A stretch of DNA of 64,000 nt from Kangiella sp. TOML190. GTDB lineage: Bacteria > Pseudomonadota > Gammaproteobacteria > Enterobacterales > Kangiellaceae. Below are positions 29,890-60,423 of this stretch, one piece after another. The translations under genes were made by a program, and so were the position numbers. Below the pieces are notes generated by a model. That model searched no databases, was not told the origin of the DNA, and was given only the letters and a program-made list of their open reading frames with translations. Numbering within the stretch: position 1 is the first letter of the stretch; the number at the start of each line of letters is the position of its first letter. The DNA lies in assembly GCF_023706045.1 (NCBI RefSeq), contig NZ_BQYL01000001.1:248001-312000 (forward strand), given 5' to 3'.

Positions 29890-30473
<584 letters not shown>

Positions 30474-55918: not shown

Positions 55919-57289
55919 ATGAGCCTAGAGTTAGACCTACAACTCAAACAACAACTCAAACTGAATCCTCAGTTGCAGCAATCGTTAAAGTTGCTCCAAC
56001 TTTCGCAACTTGAGCTGACTCAAGAAATTCAACAACAAATATATACTAATCCATTACTCGGACTCGAAGCTGCTTCTGATGAAGCTAGCGAACCTCAAGA
56101 ATTTGAACCTCTGAGTGCCGACGTCGCTAGCCAACAAACAAACACCGCCGATAGATTGCAGCAATCGGATCATCTGGTGGATTCTACCGATCTGAAAGAG
56201 CAATTAGAATTTCAATTACAGCTACACCACCTATCACAATTCGATCTTGAGATTGGTTACTACGTGATTGAGAACCTTAACCGGCAGGGTTTTTTAACGG
56301 TTACGCCCAAAGAAGTTTGCCAGCAAATCCTGCGCGATCTAGAACATCATGTGGAGCAAGATGAAGTCATTGCCATTCAGCATCTAATCCAATCTTTTGA
56401 ACCCAAAGGTTGCGCCTGCCAAGATTTACAAGAATTTTTATTGCTACAATTAAAATCCTATCAAGGTGATAATAAGCCTTTATTAAAGCAGTTGCTGTTA
56501 GAGCAATTTCAATCGCTCGCTAATGGGCACTACACTAATATTTTAAACAGCTTAAAAATTAATCAGCGCCAATTAACTGCCTTGCTCGAAAGCTTAAAAG
56601 GTTTTAGACAAAGACCTAACGACTATCAATCGGAAGAAAGCAACGACTATATCAGCCCAGATATTAAAGTGGTGCATAAAGATGGTCATTGGCAAGCCGA
56701 GCTAATTCAAAAACAACTACCGCGAGTACGGATTAATCAGAAAAATTATGATTTATTAAAGCAATCTGCAAAAAAAGACGATAAAGCCTATTTGCAAAAT
56801 AAACTCCAGCAAGCGCAATTTTTTATCCGAGCTTTGGAAGCTCGAGAATCTACTTTGCAAAAAGTGGCTAATTATATCGTCAAGCATCAACAGGCTTTTT
56901 TTGCAGACGGCGAAGCCGCTTTAAAACCGTTAAAGTTGATGGATTTAGCAGATACTTTAGAACTCCACGAATCAACCATTTCGCGCGCCACCAGTAATAA
57001 ATACTGTTTGGTTTCCGGAAGAACCATACCTTTAAAATCCCTATTTTCTCATGCCATAAAAAACTCTGAAGGAGGTGAATGCTCTCAAGCAGCCATCAAA
57101 AATAAAATTCAACAACTCATCAAAGCGGAGCCTTCCCGCAAACCTTTGAGTGATAATTCGATTGTCCAATTATTGAGCCAACAAGGTATTAGCATTGCTC
57201 GGCGCACGGTTGCCAAATACCGCGATGCCCTGCAAATTCCAAGTGCTCATAAGCGCAAGCAGTTATCACATTTACACACATCAACCTAA
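55919..57289 (+). CDS. rpoN: RNA polymerase sigma-54 factor RpoN
   Basis: 456 residues. A glutamine-rich region I (LKLNPQLQQSLKLLQLSQLE) is followed by an acidic region II, the core-binding region and the C-terminal RpoN box ARRTVAKYRD. Slightly shorter than E. coli RpoN (477). It directs enhancer-dependent transcription. It precedes hpf and ptsN in the classic order. Confidence 0.98.
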   Translation: MSLELDLQLKQQLKLNPQLQQSLKLLQLSQLELTQEIQQQIYTNPLLGLEAASDEASEPQEFEPLSADVASQQTNTADRLQQSDHLVDSTDLKEQLEFQLQLHHLSQFDLEIGYYVIENLNRQGFLTVTPKEVCQQILRDLEHHVEQDEVIAIQHLIQSFEPKGCACQDLQEFLLLQLKSYQGDNKPLLKQLLLEQFQSLANGHYTNILNSLKINQRQLTALLESLKGFRQRPNDYQSEESNDYISPDIKVVHKDGHWQAELIQKQLPRVRINQKNYDLLKQSAKKDDKAYLQNKLQQAQFFIRALEARESTLQKVANYIVKHQQAFFADGEAALKPLKLMDLADTLELHESTISRATSNKYCLVSGRTIPLKSLFSHAIKNSEGGECSQAAIKNKIQQLIKAEPSRKPLSDNSIVQLLSQQGISIARRTVAKYRDALQIPSAHKRKQLSHLHTST

Positions 57290-57310
57290 TTCAACAGAAG
57301 GAATTCATTT

Positions 57311-57598
57311 ATGCAAATTAACCTAACTGGACGTCATCTTGAAGTTACCGATCCTCTTAAGACTTTTGTTAATGAAAAATTTGCTCGGCTAGAGCGTCAT
57401 TTCGATCACATTAACAACGTTTACGTCATCCTGAGTGTTGAAAAAGTTAGACAAATTGCTGAAGCTACTTTACACGTTAATGGCGGCGAACTGTTTGCTA
57501 ATAGTGAAGCCGAAGATATGTACGCAGCAATTGATTTATTAGTTGATAAGTTAGACCGTCAAGTGATAAAACATAAGGAAAAAATGAAGCGCCATTAA
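57311..57598 (+). CDS. hpf: Ribosome hibernation promoting factor HPF (short form)
   Basis: 95 residues, matching short HPF. It begins MQINLTGRHLEVTDPLKTFV and has the DMYAAIDLLVDKLDRQVIKHK segment. It binds the 30S decoding centre and promotes 100S dimers in stationary phase. It lies 21 bp after rpoN. Confidence 0.97.
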   Translation: MQINLTGRHLEVTDPLKTFVNEKFARLERHFDHINNVYVILSVEKVRQIAEATLHVNGGELFANSEAEDMYAAIDLLVDKLDRQVIKHKEKMKRH

Positions 57599-57606
57599 GC
57601 CCTTTT

Positions 57607-58143
57607 ATGCAAATATCCGAAATCATTGCTCCCGAGCTGTGCAAGCTCGGCGAGCAAGCCTCTAGTCGCAAAAAAGCTTTGCAAGTTGCTGCCAAACATC
57701 TTGAGTCATATGAGCCGCAATTAGACGCTTTTACTACCCTAAAAGCGTTAGTCACTCGCGAGCAGCTAGGCTCTACCGCTATTGGTAATGGAGTAGCGTT
57801 ACCGCATGGTCGCTTAATAGAATGTGACAAACCCATAGCTATTTTACTGACTTTAGACGCTGGGGTTGATTTTGATGCTCCCGATGCGGAACTGGTGAAT
57901 CTAATATTTTGCTTAATCGTGCCACAACAGTATAATTTTCAGCAGCTAGGCGGACTCAATAGAATAGTCGAAGTCTTTAGCAACAAGGTATTAAGAGCGC
58001 AGATGCGCAACGCGCATAATGATGAAGCTTTATTCGATATTATGCACGTTGCGTTAACCCAATACGATCAAGAGCAAGCAAACCTGCAAGCGCCCATTCA
58101 AGACAAAAATAAGGATCAACCTAATGAAACTAGTCATTCTTAG
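57607..58143 (+). CDS. ptsN: Nitrogen PTS EIIA protein PtsN
   Basis: 178 residues of the EIIA-fructose/nitrogen fold. Phosphorylatable H67 lies in NGVALPHGRL. It is a regulatory phosphoprotein (potassium and nitrogen balance in E. coli). It overlaps the rapZ start by 20 bp. Confidence 0.96.
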   Translation: MQISEIIAPELCKLGEQASSRKKALQVAAKHLESYEPQLDAFTTLKALVTREQLGSTAIGNGVALPHGRLIECDKPIAILLTLDAGVDFDAPDAELVNLIFCLIVPQQYNFQQLGGLNRIVEVFSNKVLRAQMRNAHNDEALFDIMHVALTQYDQEQANLQAPIQDKNKDQPNETSHS

Positions 58144-58975
58144 CGGACGTTCAGGCTCTGGAAAATCGGTAGCACTCAATGCGCTAGAAGATGCCGGCTA
58201 CTACTGTATTGACAACTTACCATTAGGGCTAACGCTGGAGGTGGTGAATCGCCACCTGCGAGAAACCGATGCGATTGCCATTAGCGTAGATGCACGTAAT
58301 CCTTATGATCTCGAACACTTTAATACTGAAATTGAAAAAATCAGACTTTCTTATCCGAAAACAAAAGTCTTGTTTATTGATGCCAATGATTCCACTTTAT
58401 TAAAACGGTTTAGCGAAACGCGGCGTCGCCACCCGCTGACTCGATTGGGTATTTCCTTACGCGATGCCATGAAAAAAGAAGAAAAGCTGATTACTCCTAT
58501 TCGAGCCTTAGCTGATCTGGTGATCAATACCACCAACCTAACGCCGCACGAGCTTCGCGAGCAAATTCGTGATCGAGTGACTTCCAGTAGCCACTCAGCT
58601 ATGGATATTCTCTTTACCTCTTTTGGCTTTAAGCACGGTTCGCCGCAAGATGCCGACTTTGTATTTGACGCTCGCTGCCTACCTAACCCACACTGGGTTC
58701 CTGAGCTAAGAGAGTTCACTGGCCGTGATAAGCCAATCCAAGATTATCTTGGCTCTGATGATCAAGTGATGGAGTACCTTTGGCAACTATGAGTATTTTT
58801 AGATACTTGGCTACCCGAATTTTCGCGTCAAGGACGTAGCTACTTTACTTTTTCTATTGGTTGCACCGGCGGCAAACACCGCTCGGTCTACCTAATCGAA
58901 AAATTAGCCGAGCACTTTAAAGAAACCTATCCCAACGTGCAAATACGCCACCGCCGACTAGACAAACTCGGTTAA
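58124..58975 (+). pseudogene. rapZ: RapZ (YvcJ family) interrupted by an in-frame TGA
   Basis: Open from ATG 58124 for 222 codons: Walker A GRSGSGKS at 8-15, the DNLP motif, and FGFKHGSPQDADFVFDAR. It then hits TGA at 58790-58792. The same frame continues without another stop for 60 codons to TAA at 58973-58975. That tail carries the conserved C-terminal signature ([32 protein letters not shown]). Total 283 codons plus stop, against 284 residues in E. coli RapZ. The TGA sits where E. coli has Arg (Q-T-R-S-Y), consistent with CGA to TGA. The truncated product would lose the RNA-binding, GlmZ-type C-terminus. Mutation, sequencing error or read-through are all possible. Confidence 0.88.
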
Positions 58976-59046
58976 TCGCAACATTTCATAGCCAGCCAAT
59001 GGCTAATTAGGTAAAATGTCTTAAAAATCAGACATTAAGTATCGCT

Positions 59047-60423
59047 ATGGCAGATTTGCAAGGACAAAATAGCAAAGAGCAAATTCAGCAATTGAATGAA
59101 GCTTTAGAGGGTGGTCAATCTTCCACCTTTGAAAACCTATTGTCTGAATTATTTCCCCCTGACATCGCCTTATTTCTTGAATCCTCACCCCCGAAAATTC
59201 GTAACACCGTTTGGGAGCTGATTGAAATTGAGCAACAAGGCGAAGTGCTGCAATACCTTTCTGATGAAGTGCGACAAAACTTTATCGACAATATGCAGCC
59301 GCAAGAGTTGGCGGATGTGGTTTCGGAAATGGATACCGATGACGCGGTGGATATTCTCGAGGATCTCTCAGAAAGTCTGAGCTCGCAAGTTCTCAAGCGA
59401 CTCGATGAACAAAACCGCTCTCAGATCGAGCAAGCGCTCTCTTATCCTGAAGATACCGCCGGCGGTTTGATGAATATCGATACCATTTTGATCCGCCCGC
59501 GGGTTTCGGTGGAAGTGGTATTGCGCTATTTGCGGATCCGAGGTGAACTGCCAGAAAATACTGACCAACTCTACGTGGTAAATTCTAGCGATAAATTAAT
59601 TGGTTCGGTTTCAATTAGCTCAATCTTAACCAACCCGCCGGAAACACCAGTGTTAGAGCTGATCGAAGAACATAATCACACCATTCCCGTGGACATGACC
59701 GCTGCGGAAGTGGCACAAATTTTCCAACGCCACGATCTAGTCACCGCCCCGGTCACTGACGAAAATGGCAAGCTCTTGGGCCGGATTACTATTGACGACG
59801 TGGTTGACGTGATCGTAGAAGAAGCGGACCATTCTCTGCTGTCAATGGCACGCCTAGATGAATACGAAGATACTTTTGGCTCGATCACCAAAACCGCCAA
59901 GCGCCGCGCGATCTGGCTAGGTATTAATTTACTCACGGTTATTTTAGCCGCCTTAGTAATTGGTTTATTTGAAGGCACTATCGCCAAAGTAACGCTACTC
60001 GCAGCCTTATTACCGATAGTACCGAGTATGGGCGGTATTGCGGGCACTCAAACCTTAACCCTAGTGATCCGCGGTATGTCCTTAGGCCATATTAGCGAAG
60101 GCAACAAATCGTATTTACTCAAAAAAGAACTCGCCGTCAGTATTATCAATGGCGTACTTTGGGCCTTAGTGGTAGCAAGCTTAGTTTACTTTTTCGCAGC
60201 CTACAAAAACGTTACTGTAAGCCATTGGCATCTAGCGGTCACCATTGGTGGCGCTATGCTCTTTAATCTGGTTACAGGGGTATTATTCGGTGCTTTACTG
60301 CCCATGATCTTAAAAAAGATGGACATAGATCCAGCCATCGCTGGCGGCGTTATCCTTACCACTGTTACTGATGTTGCCGGATTTTTTGCCTTACTCGGAC
60401 TAGCAACCTACTTCTTTGGCTGA
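59047..60423 (+). CDS. mgtE: Magnesium transporter MgtE
   Basis: 458 residues. An N-terminal MgtE domain (to about 130) and two CBS domains (about 140-255, with SILTNPPETP) form the cytosolic magnesium sensor. Five C-terminal membrane helices include GGIAGTQTLTLVIRG and AGGVILTTVTDVAGF. It is a gated Mg2+ channel of the inner membrane. Confidence 0.97.
   Translation: MADLQGQNSKEQIQQLNEALEGGQSSTFENLLSELFPPDIALFLESSPPKIRNTVWELIEIEQQGEVLQYLSDEVRQNFIDNMQPQELADVVSEMDTDDAVDILEDLSESLSSQVLKRLDEQNRSQIEQALSYPEDTAGGLMNIDTILIRPRVSVEVVLRYLRIRGELPENTDQLYVVNSSDKLIGSVSISSILTNPPETPVLELIEEHNHTIPVDMTAAEVAQIFQRHDLVTAPVTDENGKLLGRITIDDVVDVIVEEADHSLLSMARLDEYEDTFGSITKTAKRRAIWLGINLLTVILAALVIGLFEGTIAKVTLLAALLPIVPSMGGIAGTQTLTLVIRGMSLGHISEGNKSYLLKKELAVSIINGVLWALVVASLVYFFAAYKNVTVSHWHLAVTIGGAMLFNLVTGVLFGALLPMILKKMDIDPAIAGGVILTTVTDVAGFFALLGLATYFFG

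Follow-up and report, generated by a model that had tools for sequence, protein, structure and literature searches.

RapZ of Escherichia coli, the closest described counterpart of the gene analysed here, is a two-domain protein whose linker spans residues 153-159, according to PMC5737377. Its RNA target is GlmZ. A rapZ nonsense allele nearly identical to the one described below is already published: PMC8546717 describes a spontaneous E227Stop mutation in a phage-resistant mutant of enterotoxigenic E. coli. The mutation lowered phage adsorption by 93.5% and was associated with increased glmS expression and an altered LPS; the allele was rebuilt and complemented and confers phage resistance.

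The window, a stretch of 64,000 nucleotides, comes from Kangiella sp. TOML190, a crab-surface isolate whose genome is a single contig of 2,454,686 bp (PMC9476960). Translation of the window on the plus strand revealed a rapZ frame at 58124-58975 composed of 222 residues, a TGA at codon 223, 60 further residues and a TAA, which confirmed the preliminary description of an in-frame TGA followed by 60 codons up to the normal RapZ length (Table 1). When the two pieces were scanned apart, the 222-residue part matched positions 1-221 of the 278 in the NCBIfam RapZ profile NF003828 with 261 bits, and the 60-residue tail matched positions 225-277 with 65 bits; since the tail aligns to the end of the same profile with E = 5.8e-18, the match is not due to chance. 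The N-terminal domain PF03668 is complete (positions 1-155 of 158), while the C-terminal domain PF22740 begins at residue 160, with its positions 1-62 preceding the TGA and 66-120 following it, and the stop therefore sits inside the C-terminal domain and not ahead of it. The RapZ family signature (P-loop and GCTGGKHRS domain) is present, the two pieces matching NF003828, PF03668 and PF22740, with GCTGGKHRS itself found in the tail, 3′ of the TGA; the continuous frame of some 280 codons that typifies the family is absent. No in-frame ATG, GTG or TTG occurs in the tail until a GTG at codon 272, so separate initiation of the tail is hardly possible. The gene is single-copy, with one match in the one-contig genome of 2,454,686 bases. 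Promoter-like sites numbered 5, against 2.8 ± 1.7 in shuffled sequences, and the search for terminators gave nothing beyond chance.

Table 1. Positions in the window of the interrupted rapZ gene, its upstream neighbour and a second gene with a broken frame.
Feature	Position	Strand	Description	Basis
Upstream gene, putatively ptsN-like	57607..58143	+	ORF, overlaps the rapZ start by 20 bases	ORF list
rapZ, part before the stop	58124..58789	+	222 codons; N-terminal domain and first half of C-terminal domain	profile matches
In-frame TGA	58790..58792	+	codon 223; Arg or Lys in genus relatives, Arg223 in E. coli	translated frame
rapZ, remainder of the frame	58793..58975	+	TAA after 60 codons; C-terminal domain, second half, with GCTGGKHRS	profile matches
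gmhA/diaA-like gene	29890..30467	+	frameshift at a seven-A run	comparison with relatives

Alignment with E. coli RapZ (PDB 5O5O, 5O5S, 8B0I, 8B0J) over residues 1-281, gap-free from 205 to 281, demonstrated that the TOML190 frame has the same length and the same two-domain build, the E. coli protein having Arg223 where TOML190 has the TGA. Missing from the truncated product would be the counterparts of E. coli T248, G249, H252 and R253, which are among the five residues lining the ligand pocket (PMC5737377). E227Stop is likewise a single nonsense codon; it lies in the same domain, 4 codons beyond the TGA, and leaves nearly the same truncated protein. That allele has a confirmed phenotype, whereas the TOML190 TGA is known from the assembled sequence alone.

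We then compared codon 223 across 144 rapZ loci (134 distinct sequences, own locus included), of which 30 came from a search of 40 relatives, 80 from named contigs and 34 from a class-wide search in which 280 of 369 genomes gave a match and rows were judged only among the matches listed. An early stop, before alignment position 280, occurred at the TOML190 locus only. All 40 relatives matched by the 222-residue part were stop-free inside it and had an open frame of at least 284 codons. UGA at codon 223 was found in none of the 143 other loci, which carry 18 different amino acids there; among the 19 other Kangiella genomes, 6 have Arg, 13 have Lys and none has a stop at this position, and the five nearest relatives use CGG, AGG, AGG, AGA and CGA. 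The origin by a CGA-to-TGA change proposed earlier is thus possible, but AGA is equally one step away and the codons of the relatives are mixed. A sense codon in close relatives had also been put forward as the mark of a sequencing error; such a codon is present in 19 of 19, but these are other species, the closest one found sharing 81% protein identity in RapZ, so the comparison does not decide the matter. The 34 listed class rows with '1 TGA', '1 TAA' or '1 TAG' had no stop before position 280 and were rejected, the codons being the genes' own ends. Eight genomes that had given either two matches or just a weak best one were re-searched, giving 13 pieces, none with an internal stop and most sitting at contig ends. 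Two of these genomes belong to distant relatives: G163, with a 75-residue N-terminal RapZ match only, and G292, with a weak match of 27 bits; in both, a contig break, a true truncation or a paralog are all possible.

The tail 3′ of the TGA proved to be as constrained as an intact one. Its dN/dS was 0.08 in each of the three computable pairs that include the TOML190 gene (dS being saturated in the other pairs), and 0.09 and 0.10 in two computable pairs of intact relatives. The other 19 genus sequences agree at 28 tail columns, and TOML190 departs from them at one (Ala to Ser), whereas a rough model with branch dS assumed to be 1.0 to 1.5 predicts 5.6-8.0 departures for a tail that evolved neutrally over 10% of the branch (P 0.003-0.024). 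The earlier remark that the tail with its GCTGGKHRS signature has decayed little is therefore borne out, and the trait expected of a recent loss allele, a tail still undecayed, is present. Constraint equal to that of intact relatives indicates that the stop is young, or absent altogether; a truncation of long standing appears strongly disfavoured by this comparison, while read-through of long standing would be compatible with it.

We consider that the TGA most likely reflects a real nonsense mutation that rapZ acquired recently, a private single-base change in the isolate or its culture, at a confidence only a little above even. Ribosomes would halt at codon 223, and the resulting 222-residue protein would end midway through the C-terminal domain, which binds RNA and metabolites, with RapZ activity probably lost. 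What the sequences show is an interrupted frame in the assembly, a stop that none of the other loci examined shares, and an undecayed tail; both the privacy of the stop in 144 loci and the constraint on the tail support a fresh mutation, as does the precedent of the spontaneous E. coli E227Stop. We infer the reality of the base and the inactivity of the product, the loss of function by analogy with that E. coli case. Counted against a mutation are the absence of an early stop from all other loci examined, which makes real rapZ loss rare, and a baseline of genuine stops of one event in 680 genes (see below).

A residual base-call error is a serious alternative, to which we give appreciably less than an even chance; the chromosome would then have a sense codon 223 and encode an ordinary full-length RapZ. 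The gene is intact elsewhere, and a real loss must pass selection, whereas an error need not. TOML190 was sequenced on MinION at 50x (FLO-MIN106D, Guppy 4.3.4, Flye, Medaka 1.3.2; reads deposited as DRA014096), and the genome paper, which gives a BUSCO value of 92.6% and a GC content of 43.4%, does not mention short reads (PMC9476960). GC was 44.0% in a 600-kb sample and 44.7% in the window. FLO-MIN106D flow cells are of the R9.4.1 type. The frequency of broken frames was assessed by comparing 1.0 Mb of TOML190 (C1:106001-1106000) with 1.0 Mb of the relative G013, whose assembly appears to have been built from short reads. Among 673 G013 genes with a counterpart in TOML190, 12 were flagged, and 8 frameshifts and 2 in-frame stops were kept; rplM (284644) and a putatively rpmB-like ORF at 460285 were dropped, the break lying in an ORF extension ahead of the likely start. 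The reverse comparison (680 genes) flagged 2, yielding no frameshift and one credible in-frame stop (TAA, in G013); the other flag, at 1039215 (own 272460-272777), was left out because it probably falls in an RNase P RNA region. Frameshifts thus numbered 8/673 in TOML190 versus 0/680 in the reverse direction (Fisher P = 0.004), and all breaks 10 versus 1 (Fisher P = 0.006). A comparison of G011 with G013 flagged 0/169 and 0/168.

The eight frameshifted genes are infB, nuoG, rep, a sensor kinase gene, rlmM, a phoH-like gene, ftsE and gmhA/diaA, and seven of the breaks fall at runs of 6 or 7 A or T, the exception being the phoH-like gene. A further break at an A6 run, in a patatin-like gene, escaped the stricter comparison and is outside the eight. 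The infB gene was found once, split in two at a six-A run (contig 572685-575346), the other search matches being GTPase relatives with at most 41% identity; as IF-2 is essential, this break is very probably an error. The frameshift in the gmhA/diaA-like phosphoheptose isomerase gene (Table 1), which is unbroken in G004, G011 and G013, is probably an assembly error too. The use of Flye and Medaka and the homopolymer frameshifts elsewhere in TOML190 fit well with the nanopore assembly errors described in PMC8442456 and PMC8235852. One trait of a base-call error, an assembly without short-read polishing that contains other residual errors, is therefore present, and this nanopore-only origin, together with the leftover frameshifts, which affect even the single-copy infB, was counted against a mutation.

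The in-frame stops do not follow the frameshifts, however, as they numbered 2/673 in TOML190 (rapZ TGA, DUF2889 TAG) versus 1/680 in G013, with no clear excess over G013. The DUF2889 gene (contig 403485, minus strand) has one in-frame TAG and a conserved tail, the same pattern as in rapZ, and this second stop was counted in favour of error. In G013, a gene at C3:1706353, putatively methyltransferase-like, carries one in-frame TAA in an assembly apparently made from short reads. Single nonsense codons probably arise naturally in Kangiella, as with this TAA.

The second trait of a base-call error, a site in a known error context (homopolymer or Dcm motif), is absent. The TGA lies outside any homopolymer, the nearest being a T5 at 58796, and neither in-frame stop falls in CCWGG as assembled. 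A search of the TOML190 genome for a C5-cytosine methylase (PF00145) found none, leaving the Dcm-motif nanopore artefact described in PMC8235852 without a source here, but the genome has one N6/N4 DNA methylase gene, which makes a methylation-linked miscall conceivable. CCWGG itself occurs at 0.45 of expectation in C1:106001-1106000 and at 0.64-0.74 in two relatives. As a substitution outside both contexts, the TGA would belong to a rarer class of error. In the Trycycler study, substitutions made up 9% of assembly errors with all assemblers pooled (PMC8442456), and 4.6% of random coding substitutions in the TOML190 genome would create a stop; an error-made stop should accordingly be rare, the expected number being 0.41 with 9 substitution errors in the sample, a number close to that of the frameshifts, and 0.23 with 5. 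Indels as the visible error mode, the lack of a clear excess of in-frame stops and the rarity of error-made ones speak for a real mutation. A larger substitution share is given in PMC8235852, where, after short-read polishing, one Guppy version left 23 SNPs and 45 indels and a later one 4 and 25; this was counted against a mutation. The weights we give to mutation, error, read-through and a short form are judgements.

Efficient read-through of the UGA, which would provide a working full-length RapZ, possibly alongside a short form, is very improbable. The constraint on the tail would be in keeping with it, and with 18 amino acids tolerated at the site in the 143 other loci an inserted residue would probably be accepted, but the remaining observations speak against it. 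Anticodons were read for all 39 tRNA genes detected, a list that may be incomplete because it rests on 150 scored candidates out of 177 from the first look; UCA was not among them, that of tRNA-Trp being CCA. The tRNA-Sec model gave sub-cut-off matches only, at ordinary tRNA genes. The release factor 2 gene prfB is present and open from profile position 13 to 353, and TGA is a regular terminator, ending 51 of 410 conserved ORFs (TAA 253, TAG 106). There was no Rfam match in 57000-60000, and the RNA 3′ of the stop folded no better than its shuffles (z 0.71). The other interrupted gene, DUF2889, has TAG and not TGA, and the codon-223 TGA is private to TOML190 among the loci examined. These results lend no support to UGA recoding of rapZ. 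It is less probable still that TOML190 makes both a 222-residue protein and a full-length RapZ from a leaky UGA, with the read-through level tuning the amount of the RNA-binding form.

Least probable of all is a RapZ truncated on purpose, with nucleotide binding retained and RNA binding given up, because the stop, although it leaves the N-terminal domain complete, falls half-way through PF22740 and not at the domain border (residue 160), so that the short product would retain half of that domain and be no clean nucleotide-binding form, and because long use would let the tail decay, which it has not, and the same stop recurs in none of the other loci examined. Of the four options first offered for this gene, a fresh mutation and a base-call error thus survive, and efficient read-through and deliberate truncation do not. 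The rapZ of TOML190 is an ordinary gene with a one-off stop, and a sign of a new mechanism is absent.

The analysis calls for caution, as the species is represented by an apparently nanopore-only genome in which several core genes, including infB, appear broken. Should the stop be a real mutation, as we favour, it would add one more natural loss of rapZ, with a protein deprived of half of its C-terminal domain, and would help to ask what RapZ does in a genus in which GlmZ was not found above cut-off. Specifically, the search of the TOML190 genome with the GlmZ model RF00083 returned no match above cut-off (67 of 129 first-look candidates scored; E. coli control positive), in contrast to E. coli, where GlmZ is the target of RapZ. 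In G004, the nearest relative, the same model gave a weak sub-cut-off match of 26 bits.
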